From the NCBI GenBank assembly GCA_009801085.1, contig VNWV01000001.1:6200001-6264000 (forward strand): 64,000 nt of DNA, read 5' to 3'. Positions 16,212 to 49,352 of this stretch are shown in pieces (position 1 is the first letter of the stretch; each line of letters starts with the position of its first letter). The translations under genes and the position numbers were made by a program. This stretch comes from Lasiodiplodia sp. COLG20 (Eukaryota; Ascomycota; Dothideomycetes; Botryosphaeriales; Botryosphaeriaceae). Under the pieces are notes generated by a model, which worked only from the letters and a program-made list of their open reading frames with translations, ran no database searches and had not been told where the DNA came from.

Positions 16212-18420
16212 TCACTCAAAGCTGCCTGGCATCAGCGAAGCCCGATTATCGGATTCCTGGGTGGCAACCGATTTCTTCTCGTCGTCGTCGTCGGCCTTAG
16301 CTTCTGGTCTTGCCGTTTTCTCCGACTCGATCTCCGGCGTCTCGGCCGGTTGCGTCTCGGGTTCCGCTCGCTTGTCATCAGCGTCCTTGTCAGCTTCGGT
16401 CTCGCCGTCGTGCGCCTCGAGTGACTTCCGCATTCCGCTTTGTAATTGCTTCGCAGCTTCCTTTTCAATCCTTCGTTCATCATCCGAATCGAGGGCAACA
16501 GCGGAATCTTGCTTCTGCTCCAGATGAGCATCGCTGTCTGTAGTCGTTACGACCGGCCTCCCAGTGTCGATGCTGCTCTCCTGCTCCGAGGAATCCAGAG
16601 GCTCTTGCGCTTCACCCTGTAATTCCTGAGTCGTATTGTTCTCCGTGTCCGGGAGCTGATCGGCCGCGCCCTTGTCGTCGTGATTGAGTTTTAACTCGCT
16701 TTCAACACTTTTCCTCGGGTCGGCTGCCCCACTACGTCGTTTCTCCGCCATGGCACCTCTGGGGCTATGGTTCAGATGGATGTAAGCGGGGACAACTCCG
16801 CCGCCAACACGAGCCCAGAACATGCGCTCGCGAAGCCGGACACTTTCTTCCCACGCGCTTTTCTCCTCATCTCCGTTCTCGGCGCGCCAATGTCCGTCCC
16901 GACACAGACGCAAGAAACTGATATAGTCACAGCAGCTCCGAACCCGACCGAGGCAGAAGTCGCACAGCGGGTACCGTTGTGCATCCTTTTCGTCAGAGGT
17001 TCTAAACCGGTGCTTTCGCGCGTAGGGATCGGTTCCATCCTTGTTCATGACTTTTGACACTCGGTTTTCGCCGCAAAGGCTGCAAGCAAAAACAGGCCCG
17101 CGGTATCTGGCGTATGGAGGTTGTGGTTCAATGGTCAACGATCCAGCGGTCATGCTGTTGAGAACAGTTCGGCGGGCCAGCCAAGAAAGACCAGGGGCGT
17201 TGTCCAAGCGAAGAGTGGGTTCAATGTCCTCCGTTAGGGCTCGCTTGTAGAATTTGATCTCCTTCAGGGCAGGGAGGACGGCACCAGTTTCCTTGTTCAC
17301 AGAATTGACCGATTTCGGCAGAGAGGTTTCAGAGCTGTTCGTGGGTTGCAGGCTAAGAGTGGCAGTCGAAATGTTGGCGATCGATCCGAGACCCATGACG
17401 TTCAAACCTCCGTAGTTTCCGCTCGTAGTGCGAGAAGTCGGCAGAGAAGTGTGTGTTTTGGCAGTCCTTAACAGCTCTTGGAACTCGCCGTATGCTTCCA
17501 CGTCGGTACGCAAAACCGGACTGATTAAGTGAGTGAAGTGCAATGGGTGCGCAGGCTCAACATCTTCATCATGTGGCGTATTCGGAGTAAGGCTTGCTCT
17601 ATCGGAGGCACGGCTTGATCGGTCTGCGGGAACGGCAGCTGGCGTTGACGGCGCCGTCGAGTTGTGCGTATTCGTCGTGGCGGTCGTCTCTTTGTCGTCA
17701 TTCTCAGCGGTCATGGCTGCCATGACTTCTTTAAGGTCCCGAAGCTGTTCCTGATGTGAGGCAAGTAGAAGCTCGGCGTCTTTTAGCTGAGTTTTATACT
17801 GCTCGACTCTTCGCTCGGACGCTTCCGTTTCTTTCCTTGCTGCAGCAACCATCTGTAGGGTGTCAGTGCATTCGAACATGTACCAGGTAGGTCGCTGCAC
17901 AACATACCGTGTTAGCCTCTTGGAAGAGAGCAGTAGTGAGAGCCTCGAGTTCGTTCTCTATCCTCTTCTTTTCTTGATCAGCGGCAAACCGAGCCTTCTT
18001 CTCTTCCAATAACTGCTTCCGCAAAGTCATCTCTAGGTTGTCGTAGTCCTCCTTCTTCACCATACGCTGCATGACGCGCGCGTGTTCTTGTGCATCGGTT
18101 TCCAATTGCCCTATCCGCCGGCGTGCCATGTCCAGTTCGGCGCGAGCCTGTTGCAAGTTGTCGTCCAGGTTCGTTTGGTGGTTGATGGCGTTAATCAGCT
18201 TCGTGCTGAGCGTGGCAACCTCGTCGTTGAGATCCGGGTGGCGCGGCGTCTCCGGACGTTCTGCACTCGAGCCTGGTCTGTTATTCGGACTGGGCGTGCG
18301 CGGGTCGGGAATCGTGTTGAGCACGCCGGACTCGGGACGGCCCAGCATGGAACGCACAGGTCCGGGAGAGACATTGCGCGGCAGGGCCGAGGTCGAGGTG
18401 GACTTGGTGAGGGCCTTCAT
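16212..18420 (-). CDS. SEC2: Rab guanine nucleotide exchange factor, Sec2 type
   Basis: Predicted exchange factor for the Sec4/Rab8 GTPase on secretory vesicles, acting in polarised exocytosis at the hyphal tip. Model complement(join(16212..17852,17908..18420)), 717 residues. The 55 bp intron joins ALFQEANT to MVAAARKE, giving the conserved end of the Sec2 coiled coil. The coiled coil spans about residues 65-215 (LNDEVATLSTKLINAINHQ onwards). Downstream is a Cys-rich module (about 310-400: CSLCGENR, YPLCDFCLGRVRSCCDY, WARVGGG) found in fungal Sec2 proteins. The last 250 residues are acidic, Ser/Glu-rich and disordered. I chose ATG 18420 (CCACCATGAAGG); an in-frame ATG at 18582 would add 54 residues, and a GTAAGT nearby suggests a spliced 5' leader. 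Confidence 0.85.
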
Positions 18421-24055: not shown

Positions 24056-24231
24056 GGCTCAGTGGTCTAGTGGTATGATTCGCGCTTCGGGCTTGTATCC
24101 CACGCCTCTAAGAGGTGTCTGAGCTGCAATATGCTGATATGTGCGAGGTCCCGGGTTCGGTAAGCTCCCAAGTTCGATCCTTACAGAATTATGAGTCAAC
24201 TAACAGTCGAAATAGATCCCCGGCTGAGCCC
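24056..24231 (+). tRNA. tRNA-Pro(CGG) with two introns, second in the T loop
   Basis: Exons 24056..24091, 24140..24159 and 24216..24231 give a complete cloverleaf: acceptor stem GGCTCAG/CTGAGCC, D region with A box TGGTCTAGTGG, anticodon loop TTCGGGT (anticodon CGG), stem CGCGC/GTGCG with one G-T pair, T stem CCGGG/CCCGG, T loop TTCGATC, and discriminator C. Intron 1 (24092..24139, 48 nt) is at the canonical 37/38 position. Intron 2 (24160..24215, 56 nt) lies between G57 and A58; it begins GTAAGC, contains ACTAACAG and ends ATAG, so it matches fungal spliceosomal introns. The B box is split, but a GTTCGATCC lies 12 nt inside intron 2. A T6 terminator follows 14 nt after the gene. Perfect stems argue against a pseudogene. 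Confidence 0.85.
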
Positions 24232-24245
24232 TAATAACCATCATC

Positions 24246-24251
24246 TTTTTT
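24246..24251 (+). terminator. Pol III T-run terminator
   Basis: Six T residues shortly after the discriminator base of tRNA-Pro(CGG), in the context ATCTTTTTTGCT, which resembles the T runs after the other two intron-2 tRNAs. Confidence 0.7.
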
Positions 24252-25613
24252 GCTTTTTGTCTCGACTTTCTGAGCTTGCTATGTGTTGCGAAGTGATGAA
24301 GCGCAAACCCCTTTTTTTGCAACCCAGCCGTACGATTGTGCGTCGGCCGTTTCTCGGAACAGGGAACCGCGGCACAGGTAAGAAACGCAAAGAGTATTTA
24401 CTAGGTTTTCGTAATCGTAAACATGATTTGAGTAAGAGCTTTTCTAAAAGTTTGACTTGAAGACCGAAGCATCACTACCGATCGGGCGCAGCAACGAAGA
24501 GTGATTGGGAGTAACATGGCTAGCATTATAACGAAATGCTTGCTAAGTATGCGCAAGTGTGACCAAGTTATCAGAAGCTTTGTTATACCACCTTCTTAGG
24601 AGGTGTAAGGGATGTCGTTGCTAGTAAAGCGGAAGGACAGGTCGCCGACACCTTTTATTAATACTAAAATAGAAATAACTGATCGCCATGTAGGCGCAAT
24701 AATAGTACGACCTCTACAGTCATGCATGCATCGAGGGTGCGTGCAGTGAGCAATGGGGTACTAGGACAGCTAAGAGAATGGTACTGCATAATGACACATT
24801 AAAGAGATTTACACTCCTTTTCACCCACTTTTGTAAGCGGTGCTCTCGTGTACGCGCATCAATACCTATACTATAAACTACTCTGTGTACTAAGTTAATG
24901 CTCTCATATTACAACATTGACGGGTAGTTGAATTATCCATCTAGACATAGATGCACGACGTATATATAAACAGATGCATCTGGGCAAGAGCTTCAACTAC
25001 CCCGACTCTATCACAATACCAAATGAACCGACCCAAGTGCCAGCGTTCGGGACATCTGGCAATCTGGCTTCGCAGCCTCCGATGTGGAGCAGGAAGCCTC
25101 GGAAAAACAAAGATGCTAGCAACTTCGAACGTGGTAAGTAAAATGAAGGCCTTGGGACGTTTTCTGATCGAATGGATTTATATTGTTATGATGTCATTGG
25201 GCAGGTGCGGTGAGCAAACTTCGGCGGTTGGCGGAAATTTGGACTTGCAAAACTTTTAGCGACAGCCAGCCAACTCCCCCATGTCTAAGGCTGTTCATCA
25301 GTGGGGTCCTCGTCGTCATCCCGAGTGCTCTAGACTTTTGCCAGGTCGCAATACCCTGCTTCGTTATCGGTGGGTGTGCTGATCCAGTGCTGCACCGGCT
25401 TGATGATCCCGCCCTTAAGAACAATTCGAGTACAAGAAGCTGTGCTATTTTCGCAACTTCATACAGACACAGTAAACCCTCCGGGCAGCTTTGCAGTTTT
25501 CAACACCAACGCAAACTCTCCCTCACCAAAAAGGCGAACGCGAAAGGCATAGATTGCGACTTGCCGATATTGTAAGCTTATAAAAGAAATCATTAATGAG
25601 AGAAAGAAAGAGC
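24252..25613. other. AT-rich gene-free stretch
   Basis: Between two tRNA-Pro genes. Short open frames only, none with a recognisable motif; no copy of the foldback family seen. Confidence 0.5.
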
Positions 25614-25631: not shown

Positions 25632-25774
25632 GGGTCTTGCCGCGGATCTGAGGAGCTGTTAGTCATTGATACTGGAGTTTGGATTCGAACAGATGAACTT
25701 ACCGAACGCGGGGCCTCTCGCAAGCTACTCAGGGTTCGCCCTAAGCGAGAATCATACCACTAGACCACAAGACC
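25632..25774 (-). tRNA. tRNA-Pro(AGG) with two introns, second in the T loop
   Basis: On the minus strand the exons are 25774..25739, 25722..25703 and 25647..25632. They form acceptor stem GGTCTTG/CAAGACC, A box TGGTCTAGTGG, anticodon loop TTAGGGT (AGG), stem CTCGC/GCGAG, T stem CCGCG/CGCGG, T loop TTCGATC and discriminator C. Intron 1 (25723..25738) is only 16 nt at position 37/38. Intron 2 (25648..25702, 55 nt) is between G57 and A58, begins GTAAGT, carries GACTAACAG and ends CTCAG. It also holds GTTCGAATCC near its 5' end, a full B box. The acceptor and T stems differ from the CGG copies yet pair fully, so this is an independent functional isoacceptor with the same unusual interruption. 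This AGG gene would read most common Pro codons. Confidence 0.85.
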
Positions 25775-35310: not shown

Positions 35311-35479
35311 GGGCTCAGCCGGGGATCTAATTACTGTTAGTTGTTGCTTGTATGAGGATCGAACTTAGGATGCTTACCGAACCCGGGACCTCGCACATAT
35401 CAGCATATTGCCGCTCAGACACCTCTTAGAGGTGCGGGGGTCGCCCGAAGCGCGAATCATACCACTAGACCACTGAGCC
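35311..35479 (-). tRNA. tRNA-Pro(CGG), second copy, two introns, second in the T loop
   Basis: Minus-strand exons 35479..35444, 35397..35378 and 35326..35311 are identical to the copy at 24056..24231: acceptor stem GGCTCAG/CTGAGCC, anticodon CGG, T stem CCGGG/CCCGG, discriminator C. Intron 1 (35398..35443, 46 nt, position 37/38) contains a hairpin CACCTCTAAGAGGTG. Intron 2 (35327..35377, 51 nt, position 57/58) begins GTAAGC, has AACTAACAG and ends TTAG. It shares GTTCGATCC near its 5' end with the first copy, but much of its remaining sequence differs while exons stay the same. That pattern is expected of real introns in working genes. The same 34-bp upstream box precedes both copies. Confidence 0.85.
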
Positions 35480-42275: not shown

Positions 42276-42356
42276 GGGTAGTTGAAGCTATCGTCCGGAC
42301 GCATATGTACAATTTTTAATTCGACCTTCTCGTCCGGACGATAGCTTCAACTACCC
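42276..42356. repeat. 81-bp foldback element (clear copy)
   Basis: Left arm GGGTAGTTGAAGCTATCGTC, right arm ending GATAGCTTCAACTACCC, almost perfect. The left flank TTTTTTGCTCATATCAT is shared with copies at 7353, 23312 and 48109. Confidence 0.92.
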
Positions 42357-44053: not shown

Positions 44054-44271
44054 GGTGTAGAGGACGGTCGAGCAAGCTGGTGTTGAGGTTGGAGTGGAGG
44101 TTAGAGGACGAGGAGCGGGTTCGAAGAGTCGGTATTTAATAGGCGTGTGTCGGCACCTGACGAGGCATAGAAGGAAGGCGCGACCTATGTAGCAAGCACG
44201 TGCTCTTGCCCAATATGTCAATCACGTTCGAATCCAAATCTACCTGCGCGAGAACCTAATCCCTCTTACGT

Positions 44272-44352
44272 GGGCAGCTGAAGCTAACGTCCGGACACAA
44301 ATGTGAGATTTTAAAATGCACAAATGCATCCGGACGTTGGCTTCAGCTGCCC
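44272..44352. repeat. 81-bp foldback element (clear copy)
   Basis: Left arm GGGCAGCTGAAGCTAACGTC, right arm ending GTTGGCTTCAGCTGCCC; compensating changes keep the arms paired (GGGCAGCTG with CAGCTGCCC). Flanks CTTACGT and GCTTAAG extend the symmetry. It lies between the Arb2-domain gene start and the uS14m gene. Confidence 0.9.
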
Positions 44353-44670
44353 GCTTAAGTAGAGTGTAATATCCCTAGTGATTAGTGCGATGGGTTAGAA
44401 ATTTGGCCTGTTTGGCTATTCCCAGCAAGAAAGTCAAATTCTTGAGCATCGCAGTCTCGGAGTGCCTCACAGTGTCAGTGCGTGGGTCAGCAGGTTGGAG
44501 TGAAGCATCTGATTTGAGGATCTGCAGCGGCGATATGCTAGCGAACCCGAACAGGAGCCCCGACAGTCTCTTGTGGACGTTGAGCCCGCGCATCCGAAAA
44601 ACCATCCTCCCAAACGCCATCCAATGCCCTGTAAATTTTGTACAACCACGCTACGCTCGTCGCCCATCGT

Positions 44671-49220: not shown

Positions 49221-49259
49221 GATGGAAACACCAAGAGATTGGACTCTTGGGAGCATTTG

Positions 49260-49352
49260 GGGCCCAACCGCGATTCGAACGCGGGACCTCTCGCATTCTA
49301 GGCTTGCTTGAAGCTTCCCAAAGCGAGAATCATACCACTAGACCATTAGGCC
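49260..49352 (-). tRNA. tRNA-Pro(TGG) with one canonical intron
   Basis: Minus strand. Acceptor stem GGCCTAA/TTGGGCC (one G-T pair), A box TGGTCTAGTGG, anticodon stem CTCGC/GCGAG, loop TTTGGGT (anticodon TGG), T stem CCGCG/CGCGG, uninterrupted T loop TTCGAAT and B box GTTCGAATCG, discriminator C. A 21-nt intron (49296..49316) sits at the standard position after G37. It has no insertion in the T loop and thus serves as an in-window control for the other three tRNA-Pro genes. Confidence 0.95.

Follow-up and report, generated by a model that had tools for sequence, protein, structure and literature searches.

Putative spliceosomal introns carrying their own B box in the T loops of nuclear tRNA genes of Lasiodiplodia sp. 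COLG20

As generally taught, no enzyme but the tRNA endonuclease deals with the introns of nuclear tRNA genes. Spliceosomal introns in genes transcribed by RNA polymerase III (Pol III) are a known kind, and the U6 intron of fission yeast is the closest precedent for the locus described here, but we know of no example in which the host is a tRNA. Schizosaccharomyces U6 introns reportedly contain a match to the B box, as the title of a 1990 paper by Frendewey et al. is said to put it. In Schizosaccharomyces pombe, U6, a Pol III RNA, possesses an mRNA-type intron near the catalytic residues, according to the passages cited here (PMC10484740). As far as these passages describe it, that intron is similar to the T-loop introns of Lasiodiplodia in being short and of mRNA type, in lying in a Pol III transcript, and in having a B-box match. 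Its host, however, is a spliceosomal RNA, whereas the Lasiodiplodia hosts are several tRNAs, in each case interrupted in the T loop, and not U6. The U6 gene of the Lasiodiplodia genome is a full-model match, with 100 nt for 105 positions, and is intronless. A further difference from the S. pombe case, to the extent that the passages describe it, is that the Lasiodiplodia introns between nucleotides 57 and 58 (57/58) replace the B box that they destroy. The B box is an internal Pol III promoter element which overlaps the T loop, and an insertion at 57/58 cuts it.

The nuclear tRNA genes of Cyanidioschyzon merolae have T-loop introns with a bulge-helix-bulge for the tRNA endonuclease, and this organism has been suggested to transcribe its tRNA genes without TFIIIC, as stated in parts of two papers (PMC3978253, PMC9602550). 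On the evidence of these parts, C. merolae and Lasiodiplodia share T-loop introns and the presence of 37/38 introns in the same gene. They differ in that the C. merolae introns have the bulge-helix-bulge, while those of Lasiodiplodia have conserved mRNA-type splice signals and a replaced B box. Among the best-ranked papers listed in our literature search, which were judged by titles and the beginnings of abstracts and in which most subscription papers are not represented, none describes a tRNA gene with a spliceosomal intron, and the term "spliceosom" is absent from a review on tRNA introns (PMC4090602).

The window, that is, the whole 64-kb stretch of DNA analysed, contains a tRNA-Pro(CGG) gene (copy a) with an insertion in its T loop (Table 1). 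The sequence-only reading had described this insertion as a spliceosome-type intron between G57 and A58, and its anatomy was reproduced to the exact base: the insertion starts with GTAAGC, contains CAACTAACAG, and ends with ATAG. When it is excised, the T stem CCGGG/CCCGG has five out of five pairs, the loop reads TTCGATC, and the acceptor stem GGCTCAG/CTGAGCC is closed. Shifting the boundary from −6 to +6 gave a consensus T arm with both −1 and 0. The tRNA side alone is ambiguous by one base, and the boundary was placed at 57/58, as claimed before, because GT-AG picks among the options left by the tRNA side. Our analysis also showed a canonical 37/38 intron in copy a, which had gone unmentioned. 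Folding of the whole copy a precursor revealed nothing unusual (z −0.23).

Table 1. Positions of the tRNA genes, introns and putative signals in the window (position 1 is its first nucleotide).
Feature	Positions	Strand	Remark
tRNA-Pro(CGG) gene copy a, positions 1-72	24056..24230	+	discriminator C73 at 24231; two introns
Canonical 37/38 intron of copy a, 48 nt	24092..24139	+	tRNA-endonuclease type, judged by position
T-loop GT-AG intron of copy a, 56 nt, at 57/58	24160..24215	+	sequence
B-box word GTTCGATCC(T) in the T-loop intron of copy a	24172..24181	+	12 nt past the 5′ splice site
CTAAC branch-site motif in the T-loop intron of copy a	24200..24204	+	proposed branch A 24203, 12 nt before the intron end
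T6 run 3′ of copy a, proposed Pol III terminator	24246..24251	+	then T5 at 24254-24258
tRNA-Pro(AGG) gene, 37/38 intron 25723-25738	25633..25774	-	sequence
T-loop GT-AG intron of tRNA-Pro(AGG), at 57/58, 55 nt	25648..25702	-	B-box word 25681-25690
tRNA-Pro(CGG) gene copy b, 37/38 intron 35398-35443	35312..35479	-	sequence
T-loop GT-AG intron of copy b, at 57/58, 51 nt	35327..35377	-	B-box word 35355-35364
tRNA-Pro(TGG) gene, canonical intron, T loop uninterrupted	49259..49352	-	internal control

Judged by its sequence, the insertion of copy a is not a one-off but has a small number of counterparts elsewhere in the Lasiodiplodia genome (assembly of 43.5 Mb in 88 contigs), with which it forms a family. 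A COQ4 protein encoded in the window has 100% identity, across its entire length, to one assigned to Lasiodiplodia hormozganensis, which agrees with a Lasiodiplodia or a very near relative as the source. T-loop insertions with GT-CTAAY-YAG were found in at least 10 tRNA loci genome-wide, nine at 57/58 and one at 60/61. The genome scan for tRNA genes with an insertion at 57/58, which had been proposed with tRNA-Pro in mind, gave nine loci, and five of them were Pro: Pro(AGG) three times and Pro(CGG) twice, along with Ala(AGC) twice, Arg(CCT), and Gly(TCC). The host at 60/61 is a Val(CAC) gene on contig C34, in which C60 and C61 are separated by 58 nt of the form GT...CTAAC...TTAG. From these sequences we consider it very probable that a nuclear tRNA gene transcribed by Pol III is here interrupted by a spliceosomal intron of U2 type, and that this intron belongs to a family most of whose members carry a B box of their own.

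The word GTTCGGTRHG occurred four times in the window against 0.64 expected, a count that none of 100 shuffles reached, and three of the four occurrences were inside tRNA genes. Genome-wide, the pattern of GTTCGGTRHG, then YTRAY, then AGA gave 39 matches versus 46 in the reversed control, which is no enrichment. The tRNA loci were therefore identified by their flanks, which were inspected for 31 of the 39 matches, the other eight being judged by their matched letters. The pattern for 60/61 had a single match in the genome, the Val gene, and none in the reversed control. For the GTTCA/GT form at 57/58 there were 17 matches in the genome with no tRNA in the matched letters, and when 14 of the 17 were scored with the family model, L056 alone matched, and weakly (E = 0.64). 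Insertions with a longer first part had three matches, with no tRNA among the matched letters. This model, built without the Arg and Val genes, recovered both among 41 loci, Arg(CCT) with E = 4.6e-5 and Val with 0.005. ARAGORN predicted a tRNA in none of the ten unaltered loci and in nine out of ten when the insertion was removed; it is insensitive to the exact boundary and gives a wrong anticodon for Val and for both Pro(CGG) copies. The family counts are lower bounds, as other insertion forms were searched in part and as scores were obtained for 63 of the 1009 candidates from the general search for tRNAs, which were read in part.

The ten T-loop insertions are 50–58 nt long, a size that mRNA introns of the window also have. 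Their 5′ sites are GTAAG in nine cases and GTGAG in one (10/10 fit GTRNG), their branch motifs CTAAC in nine and CTAAT in one (CTRAY in all ten), and their 3′ ends CAG in seven and TAG in three. The intron pattern used for the window had 55 matches versus 40 in the reversed control, a weak enrichment, so that most bare matches are due to chance. Nineteen of the 55 join open frames, and some of these 19 are also chance matches. Among these mRNA intron candidates, 14 out of 19 measured 46–62 nt, and 13 of the 14 had CTRAY 7–14 nt before a CAG or TAG end. Four of the 19 candidates, located between 38780 and 37689 on the minus strand, belong to a single gene, whose spliced product matched the Pfam families ATP-sulfurylase (E 1.2e-88) and APS kinase (E 5.8e-58). 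The T-loop introns are thus similar to the ordinary mRNA introns of this fungus in 5′ site, branch motif, 3′ site, and length, but differ from them in the host transcript and in the B-box word. Canonical 37/38 introns are present in the same genes and had 16–70 nt in the seven that were measured. They lie at another position, however, and the GT...CTAAC...AG signals were not seen in those seven.

In each of the nine insertions at 57/58, a word resembling the B box stands 11–15 nt in from the 5′ splice site: GTTCGA in eight and GTTTAATTCC in one, that of Arg. The Val insertion at 60/61, which keeps GGTTCGATC in the exon and loses only the last C of the B box, has no such word (0/1). GTTCRAN{1,2}C was present in 7 of the 9 real 57/58 introns versus 0.7–1.5% of shuffled introns. 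Within the window, 23 GT..CTRAY..YAG stretches were found, and the B-box word occurred in three of them, which are exactly the three tRNA introns; none of the other 20 contained it, one (at 17907) having the core GTTCGA only. An A box was found in all eight complete 57/58 genes and in the Val gene, and the distance from the A box to the intronic B box was 76–131 nt in those eight genes. The longest T run in the T-loop introns did not exceed 4 nt, while downstream a T run of at least five, starting +10 to +36 from the gene, was present at 10/10 loci. A B box, the absence of longer T runs in the intron, and a T run downstream are what a gene still made by Pol III would need, and the B-box words and downstream T runs point to Pol III. 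The claim of a spliceosome-type intron in a Pol III gene is in this way supported by signals, length, B-box words, and T runs, all of them features of the DNA.

A productive transcript made by Pol II, as an mRNA-like host of spliceosomal introns, is extremely improbable: spliced RNAs are indeed mostly Pol II products, but the complete 57/58 genes possess an A box, a replacement B box, and a near T run, for which no use by Pol II is known. With 50–58 nt, the T-loop introns are too short for self-splicing introns.

We also considered that the interrupted genes might be disabled, having been broken by insertion or decay while intact paralogues do the work. Among the nine 57/58 loci, the T stem pairs in every one, and eight also have the remainder of the tRNA. 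The ninth is truncated at its 5′ end, in line with this explanation: in the Ala locus on contig C78 the 5′ half was absent across 738 nt upstream, and the copy is probably dead. Some 220 nt past this truncated locus (L055), on its downstream side, we observed a decayed Ala 3′ half without T-loop intron, GGTTCGACGAGTCCCGACGGATCCA, which is perhaps a relic of local duplication. A second T-arm-like piece was seen in the 3′ flanks of the Ala(AGC) loci (L018, L020, L052, L055), some bases past the tRNA and before the T run, with the sequences CTGGTTTGATTCCAGG, CTGGTTCAATTCCGG twice, and, in L020, a form in further decay, CTAGTTAGACTCCAGG. It is as though the trailer had retained an extra B box or T-arm hairpin.

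Intact genes exist for Pro(AGG), Ala(AGC), Val(CAC), and Pro(TGG), which also agrees with disabled copies. The sequence-only reading had allowed for intact tRNA-Pro(CGG) genes elsewhere. This held in part, for other hosts: intact copies were found for Pro(AGG) (two), Ala(AGC) (two), and Val(CAC) (one), but none for Pro(CGG), Arg(CCT), or Gly(TCC). The search of the genome gave no intact copy of Pro(CGG), and that with one pattern no intact copy of Arg(CCT). Given their intact copies, the interrupted Pro(AGG), Ala(AGC), and Val(CAC) genes could be silent. The exons, however, argue against decay, being identical beside diverged introns and flanks. In the three interrupted Pro(AGG) copies they are identical over 72/72 (37/38 intron included) and 15/15 positions, while the T-loop introns have 62–93% and the flanks 57–65% identity. 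The two Pro(CGG) copies likewise have identical exons, with 83% identity in the 37/38 introns and 75% in the T-loop introns. Stem changes are two-sided. Pair 50-64 of Val is C-G in the interrupted gene and T-A in the intact gene, and pair 12-23 of Ala has T-A where the gene is interrupted and C-G where it is intact (pairs in our own numbering). With their conserved exons and paired stem changes, the interrupted genes look alive. Terminators in 10/10 loci, T stems that pair in 9/9 loci at 57/58, and the lack of any other Gly(TCC) gene in three pattern searches are also at odds with disabled genes, and decay would leave the fresh B-box word in all nine 57/58 insertions unexplained. Disabled genes are a very improbable explanation of the family.

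The need for splicing would be most pressing in Gly(TCC). Under standard decoding, the codon GGA requires a tRNA with U34. A single nuclear Gly(TCC) gene was found, the interrupted one (C45:1013977), and no second one appeared in the 88 contigs by three patterns with limited mismatches, whose matches were partly read. These patterns were the 5′ half with up to three mismatches, a looser 5′ half with one, and the 3′ end with up to three. The first gave 23 matches, one of which was the Gly(TCC) gene, and ARAGORN predicted no tRNA in the other 22. The looser 5′ half gave 30 matches, among which the gene itself was the one identified, the others being unread. The 3′ end gave 22 matches, one of which was the gene's own 3′ exon, with 14 left unread. 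C12:1996713 matched the 3′ exon with an AG before it and was tried as a second interrupted Gly(TCC) gene, but on reading it contained no tRNA, and C67:1611618, a near match to the Gly(TCC) 3′ end, is a Gly(CCC) gene. Nine matches shared one 3′ end, and the three that were read were all Gly(GCC). Nine others shared another 3′ end; the two that were read were called Ile(tat) and Arg(tct) by ARAGORN, neither being Gly. ARAGORN also reported tRNA-Gly(tcc) in L001 and L006, both from contig C47, which has 73 kb, is dense in tRNAs, and is taken to be mitochondrial. GGA made up 2 of the 39 Gly codons in the ATP-sulfurylase gene and 0 of the 17 in COQ4. Since the interrupted Gly(TCC) gene is the sole nuclear one found and only tRNAs with U34 read GGA, the gene appears to be needed, and removal of its T-loop intron would be essential for the cell if no other gene has been missed.

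Two places met in these searches, L107 (C1:1120983) and L108 (C1:4303838), together with seven unread places having the same 3′ end, are tRNA-like genes. L107 and L108 resemble the Gly(TCC) gene in body; their T loops are uninterrupted, and an intron of 46 nt lies in the anticodon loop. Their anticodons are Ile(tat) and Arg(tct) according to ARAGORN, and ATA and CTA when aligned on the Gly gene. This family is perhaps a tRNA-derived repeat or a group of remoulded tRNA genes. The Gly(GCC) genes at L100, L101, and L109 have canonical introns of 65, 34, and 68 nt (ARAGORN) with similar ends.

That the T-loop introns are ectopic introns of the red-alga or archaeal type, in which a bulge-helix-bulge is cut by the tRNA-splicing endonuclease and the ends are sealed by tRNA ligase, is very improbable. 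T-loop introns at 55/56 and 53/54 are removed in this manner in C. merolae, as reported in the parts cited (PMC3978253, PMC9602550). Loose bulge-helix-bulge motifs of 3 bp could be drawn at 3 of the 10 Lasiodiplodia T-loop junctions, versus 5 of the 7 canonical introns, and this discriminates poorly. The strict motif was found at 0/10 T-loop junctions but also at 0/7 canonical 37/38 introns of the same genes. Because the canonical introns fail the strict motif too, the case against a bulge-helix-bulge rests on the mRNA-type signals: the endonuclease route needs no GT, CTAAC, or AG, and yet all three are present in 10/10 insertions. The positions, 57/58 or 60/61, are also not the 37/38 of nuclear eukaryotic tRNA-endonuclease introns. 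The fungal tRNA endonuclease locates its cut sites by their distance from the body of the tRNA, which has to be intact, and a T-loop insertion disrupts that body.

For the spliceosomal introns that we favour, the following course of events may be proposed. The sequence itself shows how the genes are built, with their splice signals, replacement B box, terminators, and conserved exons, and also the paired changes and the recurrence; from these we infer that Pol III is used, that the spliceosome removes the intron, in which order the steps follow, and that the product is functional. Pol III would be recruited through the A box of exon 1 and a B box which the intron supplies in place of the broken one, and would read through the intron to the downstream T run. 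With GTAAG as the 5′ site, CTAAC for branching, and YAG at the 3′ end, the spliceosome would then join G57 to A58 (C60 to C61 in tRNA-Val) and so restore the T loop. Only after this splicing could T-loop modification, end trimming, and export take place, and the 37/38 intron would be cut by the tRNA endonuclease, probably later than the T-loop splicing. The proposed order, T-loop intron first and 37/38 intron later, has a parallel in C. merolae, where introns of the D and T arms are supposedly removed before the anticodon intron, and where Pus4 leaves pre-tRNAs with a T-arm intron unmodified, as described in part of one source (PMC9602550).

As to origin, copies a and b of Pro(CGG) have 87% identity across the duplicated stretch, and by this sequence likeness the pair is a duplication. 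The T-loop introns of Pro(AGG), with 62–93% identity versus a maximum of 60% in 300 random pairs of 55-mers, are clearly related on the same grounds. When the motifs of the 57/58 introns were masked, 11 of the 36 pairs were more alike than shuffled sequences (p < 0.05, uncorrected, the pairs being non-independent), and this likeness includes Pro with Ala and Pro with Gly. Shared ancestry of the Pro introns, and perhaps of others, means that the ten loci are not ten independent cases. The likenesses hint at the copying of a single intron into several T loops, whether by gene conversion or by reverse splicing. A scan of the viral contigs for the 5′ site and the B box gave four places, none with such a tRNA. 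Two related viral contigs (L102, 3894-3923, and L105, 1612-1641) contained the successive T-arm-like words GGTTCGACTCC, GTTCGGTAAG, and GGTTCGATTCC, which lie a few hundred bases upstream of a tRNA-Gln and look like crowded or partial tRNA pieces.

We lean, with less confidence than for the nature of the introns themselves, towards the view that spliceosomal introns specialised for Pol III have spread among the tRNA T loops of this fungal lineage, each copy at 57/58 with its own B box, and that the decoding of GGA and the supply of tRNA-Pro(CGG) and tRNA-Arg(CCT) have in this way become dependent on the spliceosome. By having its own B box, an intron at 57/58 could therefore settle where the host would otherwise be silenced.

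If this is true, tRNAs finished by the spliceosome would represent a second route of tRNA splicing, uncapped Pol III transcripts besides U6 would be able to reach the spliceosome, and the supply of tRNAs would be tied to the capacity for mRNA splicing. How the splicing machinery sees short Pol III RNAs, and whether introns move between genes by reverse splicing, would become testable questions. There is also a warning for annotation: tools would miss such genes, and tRNAs that are seemingly absent from fungal genomes may be hidden in this way, because ARAGORN found none of the ten unaltered loci and because the search of tRNAscan-SE 2.0 for noncanonically placed introns is described, in the part of its paper cited here, for archaeal tRNA genes (PMC8450103).

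The Rfam models, group I and group II introns among them, gave no match at gathering score in the 64-kb window, which is a weak test, since the intact Pro(TGG) gene was also unmatched. Two long, near-perfect hairpins with similar arms (GTTGAAGCTATCGTCCGGACG; GCTGAAGCTAACGTCCGGAC) were observed in the window at 42276-42356 and 44264-44360. They showed weak matches to unrelated microRNA families and are probably small inverted-repeat transposons.
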